A DNA stretch of 37,626 bases from Deferribacteraceae bacterium (GTDB lineage Bacteria; Chrysiogenota; Deferribacteres; Deferribacterales; JAISNW01), in contig JAIRQX010000108.1 in NCBI GenBank assembly GCA_031256375.1, positions 1-37,626 on the forward strand, written 5' to 3'. Below are positions 1-11,509 of the stretch, piece by piece. The position numbers and the translations under genes were made by a program. The notes below the pieces were generated by a model, which did no database searches, had not been told where the DNA came from, and was given only the letters and a program-made list of their open reading frames with translations. The first letter of the stretch is position 1. Each line of letters begins with the position of its first letter.

Positions 1-160
1 CATGAGCATAGCGCGTCTTTGCGAGGAGCAACGCGACGAAGCAATCCAGAATAAAACAATCTGGATTGCCGCGCCAAAGGTGCGGCAATAACAATCAATG
101 TAAAGTGGAACAACTATAATAATCGCACAGGACGTGCGGCGCGAAAGCGCAAAGGTAAGT
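1..160. repeat. Left-edge dispersed palindromic repeat and hairpin string
   Basis: This non-coding stretch upstream of the first gene has two parts. Bases 12-85 belong to the dispersed 'ctttgcgag...gaagcaatcc' family also seen at 11553 and 23284; within it AATCCAGA and TCTGGATT (50-68) form a hairpin, and CCGCGCC/GGTGCGG a second. Bases 124-155 hold mini-hairpins (GCAC-aggac-GTGC, GCGC-gaaa-GCGC) ending in gcgcaaaggta, which is shared with 3794-3804 and serves as the Shine-Dalgarno of the gene at 163. Confidence 0.7.
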
Positions 161-162
161 AT

Positions 163-546
163 ATGAAATTATTAAAAACCGGAAATGCCTTAAAACGCTT
201 TGAGCAGCTTGTGGTATTAAAAAAAGTTACGCAGACGGTTGAGAATTTTGAACCAGTCAACAGTTACATTAATATGCCGATAAAAGCTGTGATACAGCCT
301 GCAAACCCCGAAAGGCTGAATATATATACAGTGGATTTTAAATTACGTTATATAAAAATTCACTCAATATCAGAAATGGCGGTAAACGACATTATAGTTT
401 ACAAAAACAGGGATTACATACTGATAGAGTTACAGGATTACGACGATTACGGATATTACGAAGCACTAGGGGAAGAGATAAAAACAGCGCCACGGACGGC
501 GCGTGAACGAAGTGAAGTCATGCGGACGGCAATAGCTACGCAATAG
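163..546 (+). CDS. Phage head-closure / head-tail connector protein
   Basis: This 127-residue protein probably sits at the head-tail interface, closing the DNA-filled capsid and joining it to the tail. The middle and end of the chain read like the head-closure families: a beta-rich stretch with VNDIIVYKNRDYILIE followed by DYDDYGYYEALGEE, matching the typical 'dxVxYxgxxYxV...dxxdYGYxxxxxEE' pattern. It precedes the neck terminator and baseplate genes, as expected. The start ATG follows gcgcaaaggta from the upstream repeat. The last ~18 residues (TAPRTARERSEVMRTAIATQ) are encoded by the hairpin-string repeat that fills the next gap, so the original C-terminus has been replaced or extended by repeat sequence. 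Family assignment is from pattern and position only. Confidence 0.65.
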   Translation: MKLLKTGNALKRFEQLVVLKKVTQTVENFEPVNSYINMPIKAVIQPANPERLNIYTVDFKLRYIKIHSISEMAVNDIIVYKNRDYILIELQDYDDYGYYEALGEEIKTAPRTARERSEVMRTAIATQ

Positions 547-626
547 AGCGGCGCTGCTGTCTGCAAGACCGCCGCCGTCCACGGATGGACGATATTAATT
601 CGCGCATGACGCGCGGCGCGGAGTGC
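488..626. repeat. Hairpin-string intercistronic element (R1)
   Basis: This GC-rich mosaic of short inverted repeats spans the end of the head-closure gene and the gap before the metallopeptidase-like gene. It aligns over its full length with 5369-5493, with modules gcgtgaacgaagtgaag (501), gtctgcaagaccgccgccg (560) and cacggatggacg (580). Its right end gives GGAG, five bases before the ATG at 629. Confidence 0.75.
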
Positions 627-628
627 AA

Positions 629-1696
629 ATGAATTCAACATTGCCTAAATGGATAACGATGTTCAGCAAGGGCGCAGGGCGCTCTTTTTCGGATTCTTGC
701 GATTGGATAAAAACGTTCACGGACGCGGATAAAAAAGATGACCGATGGATAACGGTTAAATCCAACGGTGAGCATATATTGATTGGAAAGGGCGGCGAGA
801 TAAAAGCCGGACTTGGCGGAAAATTTACCGGGCAGAAGATAAGCGGGATAAAAAACAAACCAACTGATAAAACTCCGCCGCCGAAACAACCGACAAAACC
901 TGCAACAGTTAAATCAACTTTATCTACAGACACGAAAAAAAATCCGCAATCTTTAATATCCGGCGGGAGTGTGAAAAAAGATAGTAAAGAAGCGCTTGCC
1001 ATACAATACGCTGCAATGAAAGACAGACTTGACGCATGTAAAACATATGAAGAGTTTAAAACATTCAAAAAAGAACATAAACATACATTTAAAAGCGGGT
1101 TAATAACTGACGATGCAAGTCCAAATACGTGCTATTTACCCGGAGGTGACAATTGGCTGGCTGAAAAGGATATGATGTCCGGCTATTTGGATACTGTAAA
1201 AGTAGTTGCCGGAAAAGGCGCAACATTGCCTGCAATGCAGTTACTTACAAAAGATAGTGAAAGAAAATACCTAAACAGAGATACTATGAATCTTATCAAT
1301 GATCCTAGAAATTATAATGGTATTTGTGGTGACAGAAAAAACATTGTTTTAAAACGTCCAAAAAATGATCTATCGGAAGTTGCAAATGAGTACCAAAAAG
1401 GGGTTAAATCATCAAAAAGTCTACATAGAACTTTAACGCACGAAATAGGTCACACAATAGATAAAGATTTCAGTTTTAAATATAACGGCAAACAATACAC
1501 AACAGACAGTATGATGGGGTTAGGTGAGGATTTTATTAAAAAGAATGTAAGCAGTTACGGTACAACAAACAAAAGAGAATGTATGGCTGAATGTTTTTCA
1601 AGGTATGTAGGATGGAAAAACGGAGCAGATAAAAAACCCTCTGATTTCGCTTTAGCTGTAGCAGAGGGTATGCTCAAACAGAGGGAAAAAGAGTAA
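629..1696 (+). CDS. Virion-associated protein with C-terminal HExxH metallopeptidase-like region
   Basis: This 355-residue protein has two parts. Residues 36-70 carry a motif common in phage minor head/structural proteins (DDRWITVKSNG, then LIGKGGEIKAGLGGKFTG), followed by a Pro/Lys/Thr-rich linker (about 75-110). The C-terminal region carries HEIGH (H271, E272, H275) followed 42 residues later by ECMAECF (E317, E321), a layout typical of zincin metallopeptidases with a glutamate third ligand. What is seen is the zincin signature; that it is a peptidase packaged with or attached to the virion is inference. A toxin or effector role is possible, because polymorphic toxins and phage-delivered effectors use such domains. 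The ATG at 629 is preferred over the GTG at 623, since GGAG lies five bases upstream of it. The gene ends 3 bp before a convergent small gene. Confidence 0.6.
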   Translation: MNSTLPKWITMFSKGAGRSFSDSCDWIKTFTDADKKDDRWITVKSNGEHILIGKGGEIKAGLGGKFTGQKISGIKNKPTDKTPPPKQPTKPATVKSTLSTDTKKNPQSLISGGSVKKDSKEALAIQYAAMKDRLDACKTYEEFKTFKKEHKHTFKSGLITDDASPNTCYLPGGDNWLAEKDMMSGYLDTVKVVAGKGATLPAMQLLTKDSERKYLNRDTMNLINDPRNYNGICGDRKNIVLKRPKNDLSEVANEYQKGVKSSKSLHRTLTHEIGHTIDKDFSFKYNGKQYTTDSMMGLGEDFIKKNVSSYGTTNKRECMAECFSRYVGWKNGADKKPSDFALAVAEGMLKQREKE

Positions 1697-1699
1697 AGG

Positions 1700-1879
1700 T
1701 TATTTAATATGATTATTAAAACGATTATAAAAATAAACCAATTGCTCGAGCTCTTCAACCTCTGCATCTGTAGGAGGGTACGATACTATTTCTACATGAA
1801 GGCGACCTTGATCAGTGTACCTACAATATTTCTCAAAAAGATACATCATTCTTTCCCATTCTTTTTTCGGCATATCCAT
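1700..1879 (-). CDS. Small acidic protein of unknown function, antisense copy A
   Basis: This 59-codon minus-strand ORF starts MDMPKKEWERMMYLFEKY, has a central EIVSYPP and an acidic VEELEQL helix, and ends NNHIK. No family is recognised. Support for coding: a leader GGGTGA sits just before the start (Met1 or Met3 could be used), a well-spaced promoter lies at 1916-1944, and copy B keeps the same ORF with mostly conservative changes (R/K, Y/W, H/Y) and silent changes in Leu and Pro codons. It converges on the metallopeptidase-like gene with a 3-bp gap, against the direction of the late operon. Possible roles are a moron-type lysogenic gene, an immunity factor for the neighbouring protein, or a superinfection factor; none can be shown here. 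Confidence 0.7.
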   Translation of the reverse strand: MDMPKKEWERMMYLFEKYCRYTDQGRLHVEIVSYPPTDAEVEELEQLVYFYNRFNNHIK

Positions 1880-1915
1880 AATTCACCCATTAATAATTCA
1901 TTTAACGACATACAA

Positions 1916-1944
1916 ATTATAGTGTATTTTCGCGGATTTTGCAA
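1916..1944 (-). promoter_or_regulatory. Sigma70-type promoter of antisense copy A
   Basis: Read on the minus strand, TTGCAA (1939-1944) and a perfect TATAAT (1916-1921) are separated by 17 bases. Transcription would begin near 1909, about 30 bases before the start codon at 1879. The same arrangement is preserved in copy B. Confidence 0.75.
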
Positions 1945-1971
1945 TGAAAAAATGATGAAAAACATAAAAGG

Positions 1972-2148
1972 TTATTTAATATGATTATTAAAACGATTAT
2001 AAAAATAAACCAATTGCTCAAGCTCTTCAACCTCCTCATCCTTAGGGGGGTACGATACTATTTCTACATAAAGGCGAGTTTTATCCCATTTACAATATTT
2101 CTCAAAAAGATACATCATTCTTCTCCATTCTTTTTCCGGCATATCCAT
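1972..2148 (-). CDS. Small acidic protein of unknown function, antisense copy B
   Basis: This 58-codon paralogue of copy A starts MDMPEKEWRRMMYLFEKY and ends with the same 22 residues from EVEELEQL to NNHIK. It differs by a one-codon deletion around residue 22 and about ten substitutions. It has the same GGGTGA leader and its own promoter at 2185-2213. A transcript from this promoter could continue through copy A and become antisense RNA to the metallopeptidase-like gene, since no terminator is visible between them. Function unknown. Confidence 0.7.
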   Translation of the reverse strand: MDMPEKEWRRMMYLFEKYCKWDKTRLYVEIVSYPPKDEEVEELEQLVYFYNRFNNHIK

Positions 2149-2184
2149 AATTCACCCATTAATAATTCATTTAACGACACACAA

Positions 2185-2213
2185 ATTATAGTGTATTTTC
2201 GCGGATTTTGCAA
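2185..2213 (-). promoter_or_regulatory. Sigma70-type promoter of antisense copy B
   Basis: On the minus strand, TTGCAA (2208-2213) and TATAAT (2185-2190) are 17 bases apart, identical in layout to the copy A promoter. It fires away from the neck gene at 2247 and against the late operon. Confidence 0.75.
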
Positions 2214-2246
2214 TGAAAAAATGATGATAATCAAGGAGGAAATAAA

Positions 2247-2711
2247 ATGAAAACCCTCTGTATTTATATTCAGAAACTGCTTGATTACCCGCCGGAGTTA
2301 ATTGTTATCGGCAGGATGAATTTTGAACGCTCTAATCTTAAGGGCGAGTACATTGTCGTTGATGAGACTGAAATAGTCATAAAAGGGCAAACGCTTAATT
2401 ACGACCATAAAACAGATACTGAGTTTTATACTGTTTATAAATCTTCGCGCTGCGTTATATCGTTTTACGGAGATAACGCCAAAGACACTCTTATAAGGTT
2501 TGCGGCATTACAGAAATCGCAAAAAAGCAATGATTTGCAATCGGAACTTAACACTGCAATATACAGATGCCATAACCCGAGACATTTAAAAACACAGGAC
2601 GGAACGCAGTGGAATGAACTCTGGCAAGTAAATATAGTATGCGATTATAGCGCCGGAAGTTCAGAAACCGCAGAAAGCATTGAAACGCTGGAAATAAATA
2701 TTTATGACTGA
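2247..2711 (+). CDS. Phage neck terminator protein (gp12-like, LIC_12616 family)
   Basis: This 154-residue protein is expected to cap the tail tube and join it to the neck. The chain follows the LIC_12616/gp12-like pattern: an opening segment ending in Y-P-P-E-L-I-V, a strand with YKSSRCVISFYGDNAKDTLIRF (S-V/I-x-F-x-G-x-x-A-x-D), a segment starting with IYRCHN, then WNELWQVNIVCDY and a final IETLEINIYD. The ATG is preceded by a strong AAGGAGG. It overlaps the next gene by 8 bp. In related contractile phages the sheath, tube and tape-measure genes usually follow this gene; here the spike gene follows directly. Confidence 0.75.
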   Translation: MKTLCIYIQKLLDYPPELIVIGRMNFERSNLKGEYIVVDETEIVIKGQTLNYDHKTDTEFYTVYKSSRCVISFYGDNAKDTLIRFAALQKSQKSNDLQSELNTAIYRCHNPRHLKTQDGTQWNELWQVNIVCDYSAGSSETAESIETLEINIYD

Positions 2712-3393
2712 CTTATACGAAATAATAAAAAAGATAATCCGGCGTGAGTTCGCGGATATTCATACCGTATTGCCTGCAAAGGTAACAAAGGTAAATGAAA
2801 CTACAATCAACTGTCAGCCTGTGATAAACCGCGTAAAGGATGATGAATCAATAGATATGCCGGAATTCGCCGAAGTTCCGCTTATGACATTACAGGGGGG
2901 CGGCTGTTATATCCAACTGCCTGTAGCGGTGGGTGATTACTGTTTATTGCTTGTGTCTGAACGGTGTTGTGACAGATGGTATAAAGGGCAAGACAATATG
3001 CCTCCGCTGTCTGGCAGGATGTTTGATTATTCGGATTGTTTTGCCGTTGTGGGGATAAACCCTGAAAATACGGCGTTTGAGATACCGGAAGAGGGAGAGA
3101 TAATCATAAAAACCAAAAACGGCGATTATGTCAAGATTAAAGACGGTGATATTATTGATATTTACACTAAAGGCAAATGTAATATAAAAGCTGACGGAGA
3201 TGTAAATATAGAAACAGCCGCTAATTTGACAATAGGTGATGGTACAACGCCTGAAACGCCTTTCGGGACAAAACTTTTAAAATGGCTTAATGAACATCAG
3301 CATATAAGCGGAGCGCCGGGCGCTCCTACAAGTCCGGCTGTGACTCCGGCAACTGACTCGGAATTTTCACAAAAAGTAAAAACGTTTGCATAG
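2704..3393 (+). CDS. Gp138-family membrane-puncturing spike / baseplate assembly protein
   Basis: This 229-residue protein fits the Gp138/GpV-like spike that sits at the baseplate tip and pierces the outer membrane. The N-terminal half is an OB-like domain (about 20-115) with LPAKVTKVNETTINCQP and a run ending in PVAVGDYCLLLVSER. The C-terminal part has a repetitive beta-helix-like stretch (IIIKTKNGDYVKIKDGD, then IDIYTKGKCNIKADGDVNIE, about 130-180), as in spike stalks, and a tail with GTKLLKWLNEHQH and a Pro/Thr-rich end. It overlaps the neck gene by 8 bp and the next start lies 11 bp after its stop. Confidence 0.8.
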   Translation: MTDLYEIIKKIIRREFADIHTVLPAKVTKVNETTINCQPVINRVKDDESIDMPEFAEVPLMTLQGGGCYIQLPVAVGDYCLLLVSERCCDRWYKGQDNMPPLSGRMFDYSDCFAVVGINPENTAFEIPEEGEIIIKTKNGDYVKIKDGDIIDIYTKGKCNIKADGDVNIETAANLTIGDGTTPETPFGTKLLKWLNEHQHISGAPGAPTSPAVTPATDSEFSQKVKTFA

Positions 3394-3403
3394 GGGGAAT
3401 GTT

Positions 3404-3640
3404 ATGCCATTAGACGGAAATATATGCGGGAAACAAATATATGCGGCATTATTTGAGGAAAACCCATCAAATTTAGCTTCTTCTGAGAAGTTAGAACAGT
3501 TCTGTACGGAACTATTCAACTATATCAAAACAAATATGACGGTGACGTGCAACCTGACAGTAGCTACAACCGGAACTGAAAGCGCTCAGACAGGAACGGC
3601 AACCGGAAGCACAACAAATCAAAAGGTAACAATATCGTGA
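3404..3640 (+). CDS. Small phage baseplate-region protein, unknown
   Basis: This 78-residue protein is not recognised. It starts MPLDGNICGKQIYAALFEE, has a short helical middle, and ends in a Thr/Gly/Ser-rich strand pattern (TVATTGTESAQTGTATGS). The ATG at 3404 is chosen over an upstream TTG at 3386 because AGGGGG lies a few bases before it. Small proteins of this layout are common between spike and wedge genes of contractile phages, so a structural or assembly role is likely but not shown. Confidence 0.6.
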   Translation: MPLDGNICGKQIYAALFEENPSNLASSEKLEQFCTELFNYIKTNMTVTCNLTVATTGTESAQTGTATGSTTNQKVTIS

Positions 3641-3644
3641 AGTC

Positions 3645-3805
3645 CTGCGGATGGCGGTATTATAAAGAAGGGCGCGTAGCGCATGAATCAGCGGCATGGA
3701 TGCCGCGTGAACGCAGTGAACCCGCTGGATGCGGCAGGACGCCGACGCGCACGGATGCGCGTTGGTTAATCGGACAGGACGTCCGGCGCGGGAGCGCAAA
3801 GGTAA
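3645..3805. repeat. Hairpin-string intercistronic element (R2)
   Basis: This non-coding gap between the small protein and the gp25-like gene is full of GC-rich inverted repeats. It shares gccgcgtgaacgcagtgaa (3702) with R1 and R3, cgcacggatgcgcg (3748) with R4, and caggacgtccggcgcg...gcgcaaaggta (3775-3804) with the left-edge element. The final gcgcaaaggta is again placed as the Shine-Dalgarno for the next ATG (3813). Confidence 0.75.
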
Positions 3806-3812
3806 AAATAGC

Positions 3813-4166
3813 ATGAGAGTGCGCAGAGTAACCAGCGGCGACTGGACATTCGGTCAGGGGGCTGCAAACTACGCAACAGGCGGCGAGGCTGTGCGACAGC
3901 TTATAATAACCCGACTGAAATCTTTTAAATATGACTGGTTTCTTGATATGTCAGCGGGAATAGACTGGATAGGGATATTTGGCAATAAAAATACAATGGG
4001 GATTATCCGCCGTGAAGTATGGCGCGTAATCAGAGATACTGAAGGAATAAGGGATATAAAAGATATATCAATCAATGTGATTGACAGAAAAGCGACAATT
4101 ACCGTGAGCGTGGTAACCGCTTACGATTCAGAGTTCACGGAAACGATAGATATTGGAGCGGCTTAA
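3813..4166 (+). CDS. Baseplate wedge protein, gp25/GpW-like
   Basis: This 117-residue protein matches the gp25-like (lysozyme-fold without activity) wedge family that starts sheath assembly around the baseplate. Visible features are GDWTFGQG near the start, an AVRQLIITRLKSFKYDWFLD segment, GIDWIGIFGNK and a C-terminal IKDISINVID strand followed by the usual beta hairpin. Upstream in-frame codons to 3729 are repeat sequence, and the ATG at 3813 follows aaaggta. It lies directly before baseplate J with one base between stop and start, as in P2-like and related operons. Confidence 0.8.
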   Translation: MRVRRVTSGDWTFGQGAANYATGGEAVRQLIITRLKSFKYDWFLDMSAGIDWIGIFGNKNTMGIIRREVWRVIRDTEGIRDIKDISINVIDRKATITVSVVTAYDSEFTETIDIGAA

Positions 4167-4167
4167 T

Positions 4168-5346
4168 ATGAAACCCATAATAGACCAGACCGGAATACAA
4201 ATACAGACGTTTCAGGAAATATATGATGAACTTGCGGGAGCGTTAAAAGAGATTTACGGCGCGGACATCAACCTTGAGCAGTCAACCCCTGACGGGCAAA
4301 GGATAGGGATTGAGGCTAAACTTATGCTTGATTTGCAGGCGGCGCTAGCTGCGCTTTATAACGAGTTAGACCCTGATTTTGCCGCAGGTCAGGCGTTAAA
4401 CAGGCTTATAAAACTGTGCGGAATCAGGCGTAAACCAGCGGCGCGTTCCAGTGTGGATGTAACAATAACGGCTCAATATAATCTTACATTGCCTATAAAT
4501 TACACAGTACAGGATATAAACGGGAAAAACTGGGTGACAGCCTCTGAATATACGCTAACACAGGGCATAAATGCTGTAACAATGCACTCGGAAGAGTGGG
4601 GCAATATTGACGCCGGAGCTAATACAATAAATAAACCTGTGACTGTTATTCTTGGCGTACAGTCAGTCACAAACCCAGAACCCGCAATACCCGGCGCAAA
4701 CGAGGAAACAGATCAGCAGTTGCGTTTAAGAAGAAACAGAAGCCTTGAAAACGCTGCATATTCATCAACAGGGAGTTTGTATGCAAAACTATATAATATC
4801 AGCGGAGTAACAAAGTTAAAAATATATGAGAACAGCGCTGACATTTATAACGATACATTATCACTAAACCCGCATTCACTCTGGATTATAATTGAGGGAG
4901 GAGATATATCAGACATAGGTGAAATTATAGCCAAAAACAAAACAGCCGGAACAGGGCTTAAAGGAGGTATGACGGCAACATTCACAGAAAATATCTATAA
5001 GCCTGACGGAACGATGTTTTATATGGTTCATACGATGTCTTTTGACAGACCTGTTTTAACACAGCTTTATATCCGCGTAATTATAAAAAGAAAATTGATA
5101 AATTACCCTGTTGATACCGAAGCGATAAAAGAGAGTATAGAACGCGAAAACGATTTTGATATAGCTGAAAATGCGGTTGTGACAAGCCTATACGCGGCAA
5201 TATACAAAGCCGGGAATACATTTATAGCTTCTGAACTTCAGATAAGCCGTGACGGTGTAAATTGGTCGGGTGAGTTTATAGAGGCGGGGGCTTGGGAACG
5301 GTTTGTTGTGTCTTATGAGAATATAGAAATAACGGAGATTATATAA
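4168..5346 (+). CDS. Baseplate J family protein
   Basis: This 392-residue protein is a baseplate wedge subunit of the gpJ/gp6 family. It has the characteristic start (IDQTGIQIQTFQEIYDELA, then INLEQSTPDGQ), the D-x-x-x-A-x-G-Q-A-L-N-R-L element, and the central segment GANEETDQQLRLRRNRSLEN that is nearly diagnostic of the family, followed by a repeat-like beta domain and FTENIYKPDG. The ATG at 4168 is chosen over the TTG at 4153 because GGAGCGG lies upstream. Length is normal. Its neighbours gp25 and the gpI-like protein complete the wedge. Confidence 0.9.
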   Translation: MKPIIDQTGIQIQTFQEIYDELAGALKEIYGADINLEQSTPDGQRIGIEAKLMLDLQAALAALYNELDPDFAAGQALNRLIKLCGIRRKPAARSSVDVTITAQYNLTLPINYTVQDINGKNWVTASEYTLTQGINAVTMHSEEWGNIDAGANTINKPVTVILGVQSVTNPEPAIPGANEETDQQLRLRRNRSLENAAYSSTGSLYAKLYNISGVTKLKIYENSADIYNDTLSLNPHSLWIIIEGGDISDIGEIIAKNKTAGTGLKGGMTATFTENIYKPDGTMFYMVHTMSFDRPVLTQLYIRVIIKRKLINYPVDTEAIKESIERENDFDIAENAVVTSLYAAIYKAGNTFIASELQISRDGVNWSGEFIEAGAWERFVVSYENIEITEII

Positions 5347-5347
5347 G

Positions 5348-5505
5348 TTGTTATATCAGCGGCAAGGACGCCGCGTGAACGAAGCGAAGTCCTGCGGAGG
5401 GCAATAGTTACGCCATAGAGCGATACCGCCGTCTGCAAGACCGCCGCCGCGCACGGATGGGCGTTATTTATTCGCGCAGGACGCGCGGCGAAGCTAAGGA
5501 GATTA
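5348..5505. repeat. Hairpin-string intercistronic element (R3)
   Basis: The gap between baseplate J and the gpI-like gene is a near full-length relative of R1: gcgtgaacgaagcgaag (5373), ggcaatagttacgccatagagcg (5400-5422), gtctgcaagaccgccgccg (5431) and cacggatgggcg (5452). It ends in a caggacgcgcggcg module before AAGGAG, which serves the ATG at 5511. Confidence 0.75.
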
Positions 5506-5510
5506 TATAA

Positions 5511-6242
5511 ATGGGCAACGACTTTATAAAAGAATATCTCGCTATGCTGATACTGCAATATTCCGATATGCCAAAAGCAAAAGGCGAGATGACGGCAATA
5601 ATTGGGAACTTCAGTAAAATTTATTCATTATATGAAAATTTCCGCAGTGAGTTTGACCTTGACGCGGCGACAGGGAAACAACTTGATTTAATAGGAAAAA
5701 TTATAGGCTTACAGCGTAATGTACCGTATGCAATCGCAAAGAGATTTTTCGGGTTCTCAGAGTATGAGAAATCAGGCGCGTTTGCTGATAAAAACGACAG
5801 TTTTTTAGCCGTATATCCTTTTGCTGATAAATTCAGCCCGAAATATACAAATTTTCAGATGGATGACTATACATATAGACTGTTTATAAAGCTGAAAATA
5901 GCGAAAAATATATCATCCGTATATATGATTAGCGGTGAACGCACAGGCATTCAGGAAGCGGCGCTAAATGCTTTCGGCGCAGCGGCGTATGTAATAGATA
6001 ACCTAAACATGACACTGACAATTTATATTAACAATAAGATTGCGGAATTAATTGAATACATAGTTAGTTTAGATTTGCTTCCGCGCCCGCAGGGAGTGAG
6101 CTACAAATATGTTATTATTGCTGATATAGGCTATACGCTGGGGTTTTCAGACAACCAATATTCATTGGGTTTTTCAGATAAATTTAATATGGGTGTGAAA
6201 GGCGGGAAATTTGCGAAGAAATTGCAGAGAGGAGCGGAATAG
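5511..6242 (+). CDS. DUF2612 / gpI-like baseplate protein
   Basis: This 243-residue protein fits the DUF2612 family, which takes the place of P2 gpI after baseplate J and links the wedge to tail fibres. The signature element FDLDAATGKQLDLIGKIIGL is near residues 45-65, followed by DDYTYRLFIKLKIAKN and, near the C-terminus, LDLLPRPQGVSYKYV. The last residues contain a doubled YTLGFSDNQ/YSLGFSDKF motif. The ATG has an AAGGAG at good spacing. The gene ends at the start of another hairpin-string gap. Confidence 0.8.
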   Translation: MGNDFIKEYLAMLILQYSDMPKAKGEMTAIIGNFSKIYSLYENFRSEFDLDAATGKQLDLIGKIIGLQRNVPYAIAKRFFGFSEYEKSGAFADKNDSFLAVYPFADKFSPKYTNFQMDDYTYRLFIKLKIAKNISSVYMISGERTGIQEAALNAFGAAAYVIDNLNMTLTIYINNKIAELIEYIVSLDLLPRPQGVSYKYVIIADIGYTLGFSDNQYSLGFSDKFNMGVKGGKFAKKLQRGAE

Positions 6243-6412
6243 AGCGATAGCAATGGCGTGCGCCCACAGGAAGTGGGCAAGACATCCGCCAGACGAAGCC
6301 GCAAAGCGGCTGACTGAATGGCGAAGCGGCGTACCGCAAGGCGGATTTACTCCGCCGAGGATAAAGCCGCGTGTGCGAAGTGAGCGCACGGATGCGCGAA
6401 CGGAGAAAAATA
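6243..6412. repeat. Hairpin-string intercistronic element (R4)
   Basis: This gap holds at least five successive mini-hairpins: CCCAC-aggaa-GTGGG (6263), GCCGC-aaa-GCGGC (6298), GGCGG-atttact-CCGCC (6341), GTGCG-aagtgag-CGCAC (6373) and GCGCacggatGCGC (6384). The last shares the cacggatg module of R1-R3. The tail-fibre gene has its own AAGGAGG after the element. The gap stays open as a short plus-strand reading frame, but its low-complexity charged product is not credible. Confidence 0.7.
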
Positions 6413-6428
6413 AATAAGGAGGCGCATA

Positions 6429-7619
6429 GTGTCTAAAATAGTCAGACCGGATAAGAATGTAGGGACGTTTGCCCAAAATGCGACAGGTTATAACCGGACA
6501 GTGTTCGGGGAAACAACACAAAGTGACGATTTAACTGAAAATCTCAGCGAGAAATTTTTAAAGGGCTGGGAGATTGTGAACGTGAATGAAGCCCCGACAA
6601 AACAGGATTTTAATGCAGGATTTTTTACTCTCAGTAAACTTACAGCGTATTTATATCAGGCGGGAATCCCTGAATGGAATGTACATCAGGAATATCACGC
6701 TGATTCAGTGACAATTCACGATGGAGTGATATACCAATCGCTTGCTGATAATAATATTGGCAATAACCCGGGCGCGTCATCTGAAAAGTGGCGGAAAATA
6801 ATACAAGACTATACTGAAACTCCTGACGCTACAGAGACGGTGAAAGGGAAAGCCGCGTTTGCCACCTTGGAAGAAGCGCGTGAAGGGATAATTGACAATA
6901 AAATAATGTCTCCGGCACAGGTAAAAGATGTTACATCTTCAGCAATATATGGCGCGAAAGTTGGCGATGTTTTACTGCCTGTTGTTGACGGCATTTTAAT
7001 GATTCCTGATATGACAACGCCCGGATTTGAACCGTATCAGACGGTTATAAGATCATCAGAAAAATGGACAGCGCCATATGATGGTGTTTATGAGTTTGAG
7101 CTTTGGGGTGGCGGCGGCAGCGGCGGCGGTGGCGGTATGTGGGTTAGTGAATTGGGTGGCGGCGGCGGTGGCGGCGGCGGTAGCGGTTATTATGTGCGGG
7201 ATGCAAAGGTATTAATGGCGCAGCAAACATATAATGTTGTTATTGGCGAGGGTGGGGTTTACGTTGATAGTACGTCTGTTAATGGTAAAAACGGCGGATT
7301 TACAGATATATCGGCGCTGGGGTTAAGGGCGCTTGGAGGTAACGGCGGTTATGGCGGCGGTAATGGCGGTGATGGCGGTGGCGGTGGAATTGGCGGCATC
7401 GGTGGCGTTAATGGCAGTAACGGCGGCAATGGTTCTTACGGTTATTTAGGCGGCACTGCGGGATTTAGTTCAATCGGAGGCGGAGGCGGTGGCGGCGGAA
7501 GAAATGTAGCGAATTACGGTAATGGAGGAGGAGGTGCAACCGGATATGGCGATTGGACTGATTATTATAGTGGATCTGGCGGTTTACCCGGCGCAATTAG
7601 AATAACAAGAGTTTCATAG
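6429..7619 (+). CDS. Tail fibre / adhesin with glycine-rich C-terminus
   Basis: This 396-residue protein is the likely receptor-binding fibre. The N-terminus (1-70) is probably the baseplate attachment part. Residues 75-120 resemble a small carbohydrate-binding-like module (SVTIHDGVIYQSLADNNIG ... SEKWRKI). Residues 125-170 contain the tail-fibre element VKGKAAFATLEEAREG ... IMSPAQVKD. The C-terminal ~180 residues are extremely Gly-rich, with many GGGGG runs, as in glycine-rich-domain fibre tips that form polyglycine-type lattices. Translation starts with GTG, supported by AAGGAGG eight bases upstream. The Gly-rich part is encoded by GGC/GGT-rich DNA prone to length change. Confidence 0.8.
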   Translation: MSKIVRPDKNVGTFAQNATGYNRTVFGETTQSDDLTENLSEKFLKGWEIVNVNEAPTKQDFNAGFFTLSKLTAYLYQAGIPEWNVHQEYHADSVTIHDGVIYQSLADNNIGNNPGASSEKWRKIIQDYTETPDATETVKGKAAFATLEEAREGIIDNKIMSPAQVKDVTSSAIYGAKVGDVLLPVVDGILMIPDMTTPGFEPYQTVIRSSEKWTAPYDGVYEFELWGGGGSGGGGGMWVSELGGGGGGGGGSGYYVRDAKVLMAQQTYNVVIGEGGVYVDSTSVNGKNGGFTDISALGLRALGGNGGYGGGNGGDGGGGGIGGIGGVNGSNGGNGSYGYLGGTAGFSSIGGGGGGGGRNVANYGNGGGGATGYGDWTDYYSGSGGLPGAIRITRVS

Positions 7620-7628
7620 GGAGGATAT

Positions 7629-8315
7629 ATGCCGATATTTTATACGAAAGATGGAATGGCAGAGGTTTGGGATGTACAGCCGGAAGGGTATTTAACTCAG
7701 GAAGAATACCTTGCAACGGTATCTTCTGAGAAAAAAGCGTTAGATGAAATTACCGGTTATAAACGTATGCTTGCCGCAATGGATTACTACGCACTGAAAC
7801 ATTATGAGCGGCAAATTTCAGACGCTGAGTTCGCAGTATATGAAAAAATGCGGTTTGATTTAAGAAATAAAATAAGAACATTAGAGGGCAAACCGGCGCT
7901 GCCCAATGTACAGAAAAAAGAATATGCGCTTAAATCACATAATCACACAGTATCGCAAATAATTGATTTTTCGTCTGCTTTTGCTCCTATGCCACAACCT
8001 ATATATTTTGTATATGAAGAAGGATTTTATGATGACAAAGGCAACTGGTATGAAGAAGTAGGATGGTGGGATAATGGCGGCACATTTCATTCATATCCGA
8101 CGGGATTAACAATGCATGATTATAGAGTTTCTTTTCTCGGGGGATGGGCAAGAATAGTTGTTACACAAAGCAAAAACGGCAACTATATGGCTAATTTACC
8201 AAATGACGGTACATGGGCGTATTATATGAAAGGTAGCGCCGGGATAGCTGCCGGCGGCGCAGCAGTAAAGGCTAATTCTGCTGATGACGCAGGTTTTGCA
8301 TGGAGGATAAAATAA
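7629..8315 (+). CDS. Tail fibre protein with N-terminal chaperone-like module
   Basis: This 228-residue protein combines two parts. Residues 30-95 contain a helical hairpin, L...MDYYALKHYERQISDAEFAVYEKMR...IRTLE, of the type found in tail-fibre assembly proteins and repeated in the next gene. After it, YALKSHNHTVSQIIDFSSA is a classic fibre linker, and the end (GGWARIVVTQSKNG ... GFAWRIK) looks like a small fibre tip domain. It could bind a host surface sugar or protein as an alternative fibre. GGGAGG precedes the ATG. Its stop overlaps the next start (TAATG). Confidence 0.65.
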   Translation: MPIFYTKDGMAEVWDVQPEGYLTQEEYLATVSSEKKALDEITGYKRMLAAMDYYALKHYERQISDAEFAVYEKMRFDLRNKIRTLEGKPALPNVQKKEYALKSHNHTVSQIIDFSSAFAPMPQPIYFVYEEGFYDDKGNWYEEVGWWDNGGTFHSYPTGLTMHDYRVSFLGGWARIVVTQSKNGNYMANLPNDGTWAYYMKGSAGIAAGGAAVKANSADDAGFAWRIK

Positions 8316-8677
8316 TGGAAAAAATAATACACAGACAGGATAACACTTTTGTAATTGAGCATAATGGAATGCCTTATCATTTAACGTCAGCGGCAGAGCC
8401 GGAGCGGGGTATATACGCCGCTACGCTTGATCTGTACAAAACGGACAAGACGGAATTTGAAGAGGAATATCCGCCTGAACCGCCGACACCGGAAGAGATC
8501 CGCAAAGCTGGTATATTAGCAGAAATAGCAGAGTTAAAAAAGTTTCTGACAGATACAGACTACCGCGCAATTAAGCATTTTGAAGGGTTTTTAACTGAAG
8601 AGGAATATGAACCTTACAAACAGGAGCGGAAAAAAGCGCGTGACAAGATCAAAGCGCTTGAAGCGGAGTTAATATGA
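8315..8677 (+). CDS. Tail fibre assembly chaperone-like protein
   Basis: This 120-residue protein has a short N-terminal beta part, a Pro/Glu-rich linker (YPPEPPTPEEIRKAG) and a C-terminal helical hairpin, LTDTDYRAIKHFEGFLTEEE...YKQERKKARDKIKALE. That hairpin is the typical end of tail-fibre assembly chaperones ('TDY..iK..EG...eey...R..wRd.I..Le') and repeats the module in the protein before. The ATG at 8315 overlaps the upstream stop and has GGAGG before it; the ATG 15 bases upstream lacks this. It overlaps the next gene by 4 bp (ATGA). Confidence 0.7.
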   Translation: MEKIIHRQDNTFVIEHNGMPYHLTSAAEPERGIYAATLDLYKTDKTEFEEEYPPEPPTPEEIRKAGILAEIAELKKFLTDTDYRAIKHFEGFLTEEEYEPYKQERKKARDKIKALEAELI

Positions 8678-9057
8678 ATTTTTTTACTGCTGAAAAAATT
8701 ACGTATTTCATAATCATAGCGGTTTTCATTTTTTTGTTCGCCTTCATCGGTTGCGAAGAATGGCGTATCGCAAGGCTTAACGCCGCGCTTGATAAATCAA
8801 ACACGGAAACCGCTATTGCAAAGCATGACGCGCAAATGTGCAGAGGTACAATAGACAGACAGAATGAGTTAATTTCTGCGCACGCTATGGATATGGAAAA
8901 GAGCAAAGGTGAGTATGAAAAAAACGTTGCGGAGTTAAGGGCGGAAAGCGGTAAAAAACGTACAGAGGTTGAAAAACTATATGCTCATGGGATAAGTTGC
9001 AATCAGGAGCTTTACTTGATAAAAAGCCAGTTGGATGGGTTTTATGCGGTGTATTAA
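8674..9057 (+). CDS. Rz-like inner-membrane spanin (i-spanin)
   Basis: This 127-residue protein has one N-terminal membrane anchor (about residues 8-26) and a long periplasmic coiled-coil (about 30-115) with regular Leu/Ala and charged residues, as in i-spanins. These span the periplasm and join an outer-membrane lipoprotein to fuse the membranes at the last step of lysis. The Rz1-like partner starts inside its 3' end in another frame, the usual nested or overlapping arrangement. It has two extra Cys residues (CRGTIDR and SCNQEL). Sequence is not recognisably close to a named Rz, so the call rests on topology and context. Confidence 0.7.
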   Translation: MNFFTAEKITYFIIIAVFIFLFAFIGCEEWRIARLNAALDKSNTETAIAKHDAQMCRGTIDRQNELISAHAMDMEKSKGEYEKNVAELRAESGKKRTEVEKLYAHGISCNQELYLIKSQLDGFYAVY

Positions 9058-9256
9058 TTTATTGCTATTGATGATATGTACAGCCTGTGCGGCAAAGCCT
9101 GTTTACGTTTATCAGGATATTTACATACCGCAGAAATGTAGAATTGAAACGCCTGTAAAGCCTGTAAAATCTGATAACGCAGGGATTATGCTGAATGACT
9201 TAATACAATATACGCATGAGCTTGAATACGCTCTGAATGCGTGTAAGGGGGAATAA
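9035..9256 (+). CDS. Rz1-like outer-membrane spanin lipoprotein (o-spanin)
   Basis: This 73-residue protein has a short hydrophobic signal (INLLLLMICTACA) with a lipobox-like end at TAC, giving a lipidated Cys, then a KPVYVYQDIYIPQKC segment rich in Pro, Tyr and Lys. It overlaps the i-spanin by 23 bases in the +1 frame. Translation could start at 9035 or at the ATG at 9044. The lipobox is imperfect (Cys in place of Leu at -3). The presence of an o-spanin implies an outer membrane in the host. Confidence 0.65.
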   Translation: MGFMRCINLLLLMICTACAAKPVYVYQDIYIPQKCRIETPVKPVKSDNAGIMLNDLIQYTHELEYALNACKGE

Positions 9257-9480
9257 AACTATACGGGCTGGAGCAGGCTCCCCCCGTATGCCCCCCACGA
9301 TAATGGCATTAATCAGAAAAAGCGTGGTCTTTCTGATTAATGATACAGATTACGAAGGCGCAAAGCGCCGCACGTGCGACGAAACGCAGTGAGGAGCAGC
9401 GAAGCAAGCGCCATTGAGCGGGATTTATTCCCGCGAAATAGAGCGAAGCGCTCGAGTGTGAGCGCAGTGAACATTACGAG
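9257..9480. repeat. Intergenic hairpins and hairpin-string element (R5)
   Basis: No gene is seen here. Bases 9261-9288 form ATACGGG...CCCGTAT enclosing GGAGC-ag-GCTCC. Bases 9307-9342 are a perfect 13-bp inverted repeat (CATTAATCAGAAA/TTTCTGATTAATG) with a 10-base loop and no following T run. Bases 9355-9475 are a string of mini-hairpins (GGCGC-aaa-GCGCC, GCGGG-atttatt-CCCGC, GAGCG-aag-CGCTC) and the module gtgagcgcagtgaac related to R1-R3. Confidence 0.7.
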
Positions 9481-9491
9481 AGGAAAATAAC

Positions 9492-9578
9492 ATGAACAGG
9501 GTTATTGATTTTGTTTTCCTGATTGGCGCGGCAATGGCTGCGGCAGTGAGTTATGTAAGTTATCTGATAGGGTTTTAA
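9492..9578 (+). CDS. 28-residue single-span membrane peptide in lysis cassette
   Basis: This short ORF encodes MNRVIDFVFLIGAAMAAAVS followed by YVSYLIGF: a single hydrophobic segment with a charged N-terminus. GAGAGGAAA lies 7-10 bases before its ATG, and its stop is immediately followed by the ATG of the holin-like gene, so the two are translationally coupled. It could be a holin partner, antiholin or pinholin-like peptide, or a leader that sets holin translation. No family is recognised. Confidence 0.5.
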   Translation: MNRVIDFVFLIGAAMAAAVSYVSYLIGF

Positions 9579-9893
9579 ATGCCTGTACACATGACTTTTG
9601 AGCATATAGTTTTTTTTATGATTATTTCTGTTTTAGGCGGCGTTGTAGCGTTTTTCAGGAAGCATAAAAACGGAGAAACAGGAACGGAAAGAGTCGCAAT
9701 AGCGGCGGGATATGTTTGTGTTTCTGTTTTTGCCGCTCTTCTGACGCACTACGCGCTGACATATCTGGAAGTACACGAGGGACTGCACAGGGCTGCGATA
9801 GGCCTGGCGTCATATATGGGCGGCAGTTTGCTTGACGCGGCGGAGAAAAGAGGGATTAAACATATTGAAAATGGTAAACATGTAGAAAAGTAA
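9579..9893 (+). CDS. Holin-like membrane protein
   Basis: This 104-residue protein has three hydrophobic segments (about 7-26, 42-65 and 71-88), a charged loop (RKHKNGETGTER) and a basic tail, matching holins of the three-span class such as lambda S-like families. The last segment, HRAAIGLASYMGGSLLDAAEKR, resembles the third span of that class. It would form the membrane holes that release the endolysin. Its start abuts the stop of the small peptide, and the endolysin begins 15 bp after its stop. Confidence 0.7.
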   Translation: MPVHMTFEHIVFFMIISVLGGVVAFFRKHKNGETGTERVAIAAGYVCVSVFAALLTHYALTYLEVHEGLHRAAIGLASYMGGSLLDAAEKRGIKHIENGKHVEK

Positions 9894-9908
9894 CAGGGGG
9901 AAAAGATA

Positions 9909-10250
9909 ATGAAATTAGGGGATTATCAAGAGATTTTTAGTTCAAACATAGCAAAATTATTAGTATATGCTCAAACGCAGGGGTACGGCTGCCGGTTACG
10001 TGAAGTAGAACGGACAGAATATCAGCAAAAAGAGTATTTGCGTATAGGAAAAAGCAGAACATTAAACTCCATGCACATTAAGAGTCTTGCTGCGGATATT
10101 TATTTTACAAAGGACGGGAAACTTATTGAAACAAAAGACGGCTTGAAACAAATCGGAGCGTACTGGGAAAGTCTAAGCAAAAATAACCGCTGGGGCGGGA
10201 ACTTTACAACACTGGTTGACTGCCCTCATTTTGAGATGATGGAAAATTGA
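9909..10250 (+). CDS. Endolysin, M15-family peptidoglycan peptidase
   Basis: This 113-residue protein is an M15-type metallopeptidase that cuts the peptide part of peptidoglycan (L-Ala-D-Glu or D-Ala-D-Ala type). The two zinc-site motifs are intact: SMHIKSLAAD gives H56 and D63 (SxHxxxxAxD) and DCPHFE gives H107. There is no signal peptide, so release depends on the holin. AGGGGGAAAAG precedes the ATG. It is a compact single-domain form like those of many phages of Gram-negative hosts. Confidence 0.85.
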   Translation: MKLGDYQEIFSSNIAKLLVYAQTQGYGCRLREVERTEYQQKEYLRIGKSRTLNSMHIKSLAADIYFTKDGKLIETKDGLKQIGAYWESLSKNNRWGGNFTTLVDCPHFEMMEN

Positions 10251-10282
10251 AATTATATTACAGACTTGAATATGAGGAATAA

Positions 10283-11509
10283 ATGAACGCGACTTCGGAA
10301 CACTTTGAGGAAATATCAGTAACAAAGCCTTTTATGCGTTTTCTTAGGGAAAACGCGCGTTATAAAGTAGCTTATGGCGGCAGAGGAGGGGCGAAATCTG
10401 AATCTATCGCACGGATACTTCTCGCAAAAGCTGTGAAACAACAGATGCGTATTCTATGCACCCGCCAATATCAGGCATCAATACGCGACAGTGTTCATAA
10501 GCTGTTATCAGATATAATCCGTTCATATCCCGTCACACTTGATCCGTATTTCAAGATTACCAACGATTCAATAGTCTGTAACGGCAGCGGTTCGGAATTT
10601 ATCTTCAAAGGGCTGCAAAACATAATTGAAATAAAATCGATGCAGGCGGTTAATATTTGCTGGGTAGAGGAGGCTGTAAACGTTACAGCCGACAACTGGA
10701 ATATACTGATACCGACCATCCGCGCAGAAAACTCTGAAATATGGGTGAGTTTTAACCCTATAAATATCACAGACCCGACATATCAGCGGTTTGTATTAAA
10801 CAGGGCAAGCGATGATCAGATTACCCTTTCTGTAACTTACAGAGATAACCCGTTTTTCCCCGGTGTGCTGCGCCGTGAGATGGAGCAGTGCAAAAAGAAT
10901 GATTACGACCTTTATCTGCATATCTGGGAGGGTAATCCGAAAACATTGTCTGACGCAATTATTTTTAAAGGCAAATATGAGATAAAGGAATTTCAAACAA
11001 TGCCATGCCCGCGTTGGAGGCTGGGAGCGGATTGGGGGTTTGCCGCCGATCCGTCAACGCTTATTGCCATGTATATAAATGAAAACAATTTATATATACG
11101 TCACGAGGTTTACGGACATGGCATTGAAATACGCGATATGGAACAATTCTGGAAGCCTGTACTTGATAAGACAGGGAAACAAACTGTTTACGCCGATTGC
11201 GCAAGACCTGAGACAATATCGGACGCGAACAGGTATTCCGGAACAACCGTAACCGCCGCAAAAAAGTGGGCTGGCTCCGTTGAGGACGGCATTGAGTTCA
11301 TCCGCGGAAAATTCGGGAAAATATATATCCACCCCGAATGCAAACATACCGCTGAAGAGTTCGGCAGGTACAGCTACAAAGTTGACCGGAAAACGGAAGA
11401 GATATTGCCGGTTGTGGCTGACGCTTTTAATCATTGCATAGACGCTGTACGGTACGGGCTTGACGGATATATACGAAATAATAGCTGTGACTACGGGGAG
11501 TTATTATAG
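10283..11509 (+). CDS. Terminase large subunit
   Basis: This 408-residue protein is the DNA-packaging motor ATPase and nuclease, of the PBSX/Terminase_3 type. The Walker A motif is YGGRGGAKS (32-39), the Walker B is ICWVEEA, and the nuclease domain has its acidic residues in RLGADWGFAADPS (D250), VYADCARPE and the final NHCIDAVRYG. All key residues are present, so the enzyme looks functional. GAGGAA lies before the ATG. It is the last phage gene: no small terminase or portal is beside it, and the next gene is a host gene on the other strand. In most phages the terminase is next to the portal, so either the prophage map is circularly permuted or genes are missing. Confidence 0.92.
   Translation: MNATSEHFEEISVTKPFMRFLRENARYKVAYGGRGGAKSESIARILLAKAVKQQMRILCTRQYQASIRDSVHKLLSDIIRSYPVTLDPYFKITNDSIVCNGSGSEFIFKGLQNIIEIKSMQAVNICWVEEAVNVTADNWNILIPTIRAENSEIWVSFNPINITDPTYQRFVLNRASDDQITLSVTYRDNPFFPGVLRREMEQCKKNDYDLYLHIWEGNPKTLSDAIIFKGKYEIKEFQTMPCPRWRLGADWGFAADPSTLIAMYINENNLYIRHEVYGHGIEIRDMEQFWKPVLDKTGKQTVYADCARPETISDANRYSGTTVTAAKKWAGSVEDGIEFIRGKFGKIYIHPECKHTAEEFGRYSYKVDRKTEEILPVVADAFNHCIDAVRYGLDGYIRNNSCDYGELL

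Follow-up and report, generated by a model that had tools for sequence, protein, structure and literature searches.

Two short open reading frames (ORFs), S1 and S2, repeated in tandem on the strand opposite to the late genes of a prophage, raise the question of what such mini-genes do there. They lie in a window of 37,626 nucleotides that is one whole contig (C128) of a Deferribacteraceae genome (1.95 Mb in 128 contigs). The initial annotation treated the pair as isolated moron cargo. We propose, with a probability of about three in four, that they are colicin-style immunity genes for an adjacent phage-borne polymorphic toxin of the MuF/portal type, with promoters of their own that would be active in the lysogen. 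Positions 1-11509 of the window are the end of the prophage, in which the following genes were recognized:

163-546: collar-like gene (weak match)
623-1696, + strand: 357-aa ORF, a toxin-like gene ending next to the mini-genes
2247-2711: tail terminator gene
2704-3393: baseplate spike-like gene
downstream of 2704-3393 and before the terminase: baseplate J, DUF2612 and glycine-rich fibre-like gene
10283-11509: terminase large subunit

Host genes encoding a U32 peptidase, a penicillin-binding protein and an RNase R-like protein follow past the prophage on the same contig. The succession of neck, baseplate J, fibre-like and terminase genes and then host genes identifies the phage on C128 as temperate. 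Between the toxin-like gene and the tail terminator gene, the mini-genes occupy two direct repeats (90-96% identical, spacing 269-272 nt), each with a promoter, a leader, a ribosome-binding site and a minus-strand ORF:

1695-1966 (start also given as 1685): repeat unit 1, from the toxin stop to upstream of promoter P1
1700-1879, - strand: S1, immunity-like ORF of 59 aa, with a homologue next to each toxin domain and under purifying selection
1883-1888, - strand: S1 ribosome-binding site GGGTGA (GGGTG invariant in the five close copies)
1916-1944, - strand: promoter P1, TTGCAA-17-TATAAT, with the same position and spacing in diverged copies
1967-2233 (start also given as 1957): repeat unit 2, a second copy of the transcription unit
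1972-2148, - strand: S2, immunity-like ORF of 58 aa, the tandem copy by repeat comparison, also under purifying selection
2152-2157, - strand: S2 ribosome-binding site GGGTGA
2185-2213, - strand: promoter P2, TTGCAA-17-TATAAT, with the same position and spacing in diverged copies

Two tandem units with antisense ORFs had been described at a length of ~262 bp each; the units and their ORFs stand, and the length is corrected to ~270 bp. As also described, S1 and S2 share one frame and differ by a one-codon deletion, and the TTGCAA-17-TATAAT promoter of each unit was located at 1944-1916 and 2213-2185.

The late strand is also open over both units (91 and 89 aa), so the openness of an ORF is by itself no evidence for genes on the minus strand. 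Three further close copies of the small gene are present on a second contig, C109, with protein identities of 71% (S3), ~54% (S4) and ~51% (S5). We examined selection in codon alignments with relocated substitutions for the 10 non-independent pairs formed by S1-S5. Amino-acid changes in the minus frame fell below expectation in all 10 pairs (p 0.0002-0.024, the pairs being non-independent), as the initial annotation had anticipated. For example, the minus frame had 17 changes against 27.2 expected in S1/S3 (p 0.0002) and 22 against 31.9 in S4/S5 (p 0.0002); the S1/S2 pair is weak alone (9 against 12.8, p 0.024). The late-strand frame stayed near expectation in most pairs (27 against 25.0 in S1/S3) and reached p < 0.05 in just two of the 10, both involving the decayed S5 (S1/S5, p 0.021; S2/S5, p 0.005). 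The minus frame is under purifying selection, and the late-strand frame is mostly under none.

A broken minus ORF facing an open plus frame, which the initial annotation had named as evidence against the genes, occurs once. An in-frame TAG interrupts S5 (L006:10188-10361, + strand), which lies next to the MuF toxin gene and whose late-strand frame is open. S5 is a decayed gene whose tandem partner, S4, is intact; selection still points to the minus frame, and S5 is the single broken gene among six. The stop in S5 and the openness of all units on the late strand would suit a non-coding tandem repeat whose real frame, if any, is the late-strand one. Such a reading is hardly credible against the purifying selection on the minus frame, its general absence from the late-strand frame and a minus-strand protein still recognizable in a more distant copy. 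This copy, on contig C62, is homologous to the other members at 29-34% identity (scores of 61-78, where 5000 shuffles of each pair reached 59 at best).

Promoter-like sites are not enriched in the region (11 seen against 12.5 expected in shuffles). The credibility of P1 and P2 comes from the -35 and -10 elements, spacer, leader and GGGTG being placed alike in three further diverged copies. All five close copies keep TTG(C/A)nn, a gap-free 17-nt spacer, TATnnT, the leader and GGGTG before the ATG. Together with the deficit of substitutions in the minus frame, these conserved promoters bear out the earlier proposal of real protein-coding genes on the minus strand with promoters of their own. Direct reading and folding in three copies of the locus also identified a potential end for their transcript:

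1631-1669, - strand: candidate intrinsic terminator inside the 3' coding end of the toxin gene, with stem ACCCTCTG/CAGAGGGT (8 bp) and then T6

In both the window and the portal copy, a minus-strand hairpin followed by T6 lies within 70 nt of the end of the toxin gene, and the T-run after the hairpin is weaker in the MuF copy. The stem codons CCC TCT ... GCA GAG GG(T/C) are kept in the three copies and adjacent codons vary. A terminator scan (loop of at most 8) did not list the 1631-1669 hairpin because its loop is longer than the limit of the scan. This hairpin may end the immunity transcript and leave the late transcript unaffected. With their own promoters and a candidate terminator between regular phage genes, moron-like autonomous transcription of the mini-genes is plausible.

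Could the units instead work mainly as RNA? Antisense RNA or transcriptional interference that dampens leaky toxin expression in the lysogen in a type I-like manner, with a secondary role for the peptide, would fit the good-looking convergent promoters, a transcript running into the 3' end of the toxin gene and the candidate terminator located there. We regard this as improbable because selection acts at the protein level in every pair, the ribosome site is invariant and coverage is limited to the last ~65 nt of the toxin gene.

The nature of the convergent gene, whose stop is 3 nt from that of S1, provides a clue to the role of the mini-genes. It has the following parts:

623-1696, + strand: toxin-like gene, with a short N-terminal part and linker (phrog_25904-like, WITVKSNGEHILIGKGGEIKAGLGGKFTGQ) and then the metallopeptidase domain
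941-1693, + strand: C-terminal zincin-type metallopeptidase domain of ~250 aa (weak Pfam matches, AlphaFold2, Foldseek)
1439-1453, + strand: zinc-binding motif HEIGH

Pfam returned Reprolysin_4, ATLF and M43 zincin matches at residues 257-335, all below gathering cut-offs, and the PHROG matches of the protein were the C-terminus of phrog_324 and phrog_25904. The AlphaFold2 model of the domain (pLDDT 80) has weak best matches in Foldseek (best E 0.007, TM 0.36) to zincin metalloproteases, the lethal-factor catalytic fold and PPEP-1. Furthermore, the domain is under purifying selection (dN 0.14 and dS 0.74 between the window and portal copies). A sequence search of the genome identified exactly four such domains:

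toxin domain 1: standalone, 623-1696 on C128, with antisense partners S1 and S2
toxin domain 2: C-terminus of the portal protein (PF06381, 744 aa) on C109
toxin domain 3: C-terminus of the MuF protein (PF04233, 31.8 bits, above cut-off; 579 aa) on C109
toxin domain 4: standalone on C62, preceded by a short integrase-like ORF (called by eye, with no Pfam integrase match) and near a tRNA-like sequence

The HExxH motif and downstream glutamates are invariant across the four domains, and the window domain is 66-77% identical to those fused to the MuF and portal proteins. Pfam detected no MuF domain (PF04233) in 623-1696. By its sequence, this gene is not a MuF toxin but encodes a standalone relative of the toxin domain found on the MuF and portal proteins.

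A gene of the small family abuts each of the four toxin domains in antisense and convergent orientation; the two stops lie 2-4 nt from each other or overlap by 4 nt. Every toxin gene is directly followed by a small gene of the size of immunity genes (<150 aa). Conversely, all six small genes adjoin a toxin domain or a tandem partner that adjoins one, and no orphan small gene was found in the genome. The identities of toxin domains and partners also fall together (77/71, 66/54, 63/51, 38/29, 36/34 and 33/30%). This constant pairing speaks against isolated cargo and suggests that the mini-genes, instead of being a moron on their own, probably encode immunity. A moron of unrelated function (e.g., superinfection exclusion) placed beside the toxin by chance would account for the separate promoter, the opposite strand and the late genes on both sides. 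Such a coincidence is very unlikely to have recurred at four of four toxin domains in four different genomic contexts without leaving an orphan copy.

As immunity proteins, S1 and S2 would be small cytosolic proteins that bind the metallopeptidase of the convergent gene and inhibit it. The small proteins are acidic (pI 4.8-5.3) and three of the four toxin domains are basic (pI 9.0-9.3). The MuF-linked domain is near neutral (pI 6.4), so charge complementarity with the small proteins is not uniform. The small protein has a predicted alpha-beta-beta-alpha fold, for which a search of the PDB gave no match.

The carriers of the domain point to a modular organization. Residues 2-275 of the MuF protein are ~40% identical to Vibrio phage head proteins without the extension (the Athena1 protein has 269 aa and no extension), and the N-terminus of the portal protein is 45-47% identical to its Vibrio phage counterparts. 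An IMG/VR scan with a MuF alignment yielded 484 relatives; the metallopeptidase domain is absent from the 80 that were kept and from all 78 complete ones. IMG/VR scans with the MuF and portal single sequences gave no matches. Nine of the IMG/VR MuF relatives (L094, L101, L102, L106, L116, L117, L128, L130 and L131) are ~335 aa longer, and the extra length apparently corresponds to inteins near a conserved CRC motif rather than to toxin tips. The same toxin domain thus sits on different carriers (portal, MuF and standalone), and the portals of relatives of the same order (L027, L031 and L033) end in a PBECR1 nuclease domain instead. The extension-free MuF relatives and the PBECR1 domains on the portals of relatives suggest that the metallopeptidase is a variable tip. 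Polymorphic toxins (PMC5576092, PMC3482391) and polyvalent proteins (PMC5512222) show this pattern of a carrier with a variable tip.

Alternatively, the domain could be a virion-maturation or self-processing enzyme and the small protein a timing inhibitor that holds it back until assembly. Zincin domains occur in polyvalent proteins more often than any other domain and were proposed to process them (PMC5512222), and the phage region of C109 also encodes a DUF2213 protein (L006:1067-2863, - strand) with the polyvalent-protein domain LPD3. We consider this explanation unlikely. The absence of the domain from 78 of 78 complete MuF relatives indicates that assembly does not generally depend on it, an assembly inhibitor would be expected within the late operon rather than in a separately promoted unit on the other strand, and the C62 cassette stands alone beside a short integrase-like ORF.

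The toxin copies on C109 and C128 may belong to the same phage. C109 has portal, MuF, sheath-like DUF3383, Dit-like, gp41 hub and DUF2213 genes, a set complementary to the neck, baseplate and terminase genes of C128. In the searches made, Portal_3 was found once in the genome, on C109, and Terminase_3 once, on C128. Furthermore, C128 starts with a dispersed repeat of a kind that would break an assembly. The complementary gene sets and this repeat suggest that C109 and C128 are probably one prophage with three toxin copies, split by the assembly.

The immunity reading would then work as follows. The prophage bears the toxin-like domain on virion parts (portal and MuF) and in a standalone gene flanked by collar/neck genes. 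The putatively toxic metallopeptidase would travel in the virion and enter the next cell together with the DNA. During lysogeny, the late operon would be silent and the immunity genes would fire from the sigma-70-type promoters on the opposite strand. Lysogens would be shielded both from leaky expression and from the toxin of siblings that undergo spontaneous induction, and non-lysogens would be unprotected. The tandem copy, S2, could raise the dose or be diverging in specificity. A more elaborate version, which we find doubtful, has one phage placing the same effector at three portal-vertex positions (portal, MuF and a separate neck-region gene), each with an antisense immunity unit. The convergent layout would then act as a switch: late transcription would pass through the immunity units, silence them and leave the lysis-committed cell unprotected while lysogens remain protected.

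The immunity genes of pore-forming colicins are antisense and separately promoted, and colicin immunity is expressed independently of the induced toxin. For colicin M, the immunity gene cmi is found downstream of the toxin gene and on the other strand (PMC5277000), a convergent arrangement shared with the mini-genes. However, the proteins are unrelated, and colicins are secreted bacteriocins whereas the toxin here is a putative virion component.

MuF toxins are reported to include a metallopeptidase in 20% of cases and a small downstream ORF in 89% (PMC5576092). Our cassettes resemble them (Jamet et al., 2017, PMC5576092) in the temperate phage, the metallopeptidase class and the small ORF directly downstream and, for the C109 copy, in the MuF N-terminus with a variable C-terminal toxin-like domain. 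They differ in that the small gene is antisense, convergent and separately promoted, the same domain is also found on a portal and standalone (the window has no MuF domain) and the toxin and immunity families are without relatives in the collections searched. We know of no published MuF toxin with an antisense, convergent immunity layout. This assessment draws on the main text of PMC5576092, where the words 'opposite' and 'antisense' do not occur.

Other known systems share part of the arrangement. Portal- and MuF-PBECR polyvalent proteins (Iyer et al., 2017, PMC5512222) also have an effector fused to the portal or MuF protein that is proposed to be injected with the DNA, and PBECR-type fusions are present on portals of this order. 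In contrast, the metallopeptidase replaces the PBECR nuclease here, and no comparable abutting antisense gene was found at the PBECR portal loci that we read. Phage toxins with two immunity genes have been described (PMC12226406, PMC11699363). For example, the Apk2/IapK/Aph1 and Bxa/Bsi/BAH prophage sets combine a phage-borne toxin with two immunity genes, but their two immunity proteins act by different mechanisms whereas S1 and S2 are tandem copies of one opposite-strand gene. Type II toxin-antitoxin systems differ from the convergent separate units described here: toxin and antitoxin share an operon, and the antitoxin usually binds DNA and regulates its own expression.

If correct, this interpretation would define a toxin-immunity family with a rationale for its layout: immunity is on in the lysogen and the toxin is made only in the late program. 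It would place a colicin-like logic on the phage particle and one toxin cassette on different virion proteins within one genome. It would also widen the range of MuF-type toxins, adding the portal as a carrier and a bacterial order for which we found none described. Furthermore, antisense mini-genes beside phage structural genes could be recognized as immunity genes through their convergent neighbor.

All the evidence on the toxin and small genes comes from one genome. No relatives of the toxin domain or of the small protein were found in the phage, plasmid, IMG/VR and GTDB collections searched, in agreement with the initial description of a protein resembling nothing recognizable. The toxin domain was found in none of the genomes of 99 relatives and, by profile, in none of 384 other genomes; the small protein was found in none of 99 other genomes. 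We rejected phrog_3453 as a weak relative (E 8e-4) because its matches elsewhere are mostly in large unrelated frames. Also discarded were a toxin match in genome G039 (E 0.005), which is spurious and lies inside a solute-binding-protein-like gene, and the results of a PDB sequence search with the toxin profile, mainly chance matches to HPr. The relative search also returned a match in Brevibacterium phage Cantare at E 0.5.

Two further MuF proteins in the genome have different C-termini. The one on C112 (L023:505-2073, - strand; 522 aa) has a different HExxH C-terminus (HEVTH). A small convergent antisense ORF (L023:212-508, + strand), whose stop overlaps the MuF gene by 4 nt, resembles part of L006:14807-15679. 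A second, unrelated toxin of the same genome may also rely on the antisense layout. The third MuF protein, on C115 (L025:988-2382, + strand; 464 aa), has a C-terminal extension, and its gene is overlapped by a sense-strand ORF of 163 aa (L025:2325-2816, + strand). Finally, a dispersed repeat of ~120 bp is present at the contig start, with repeats in the window at 1-160, 120-163 and 3767-3810 and ~48 matches in the genome, and GC-rich intergenic repeats (CAGGACGTNCGGCGCG...GCGCAAAGGTAA) lie between phage genes. Both kinds are candidate mobile or MITE-like elements.
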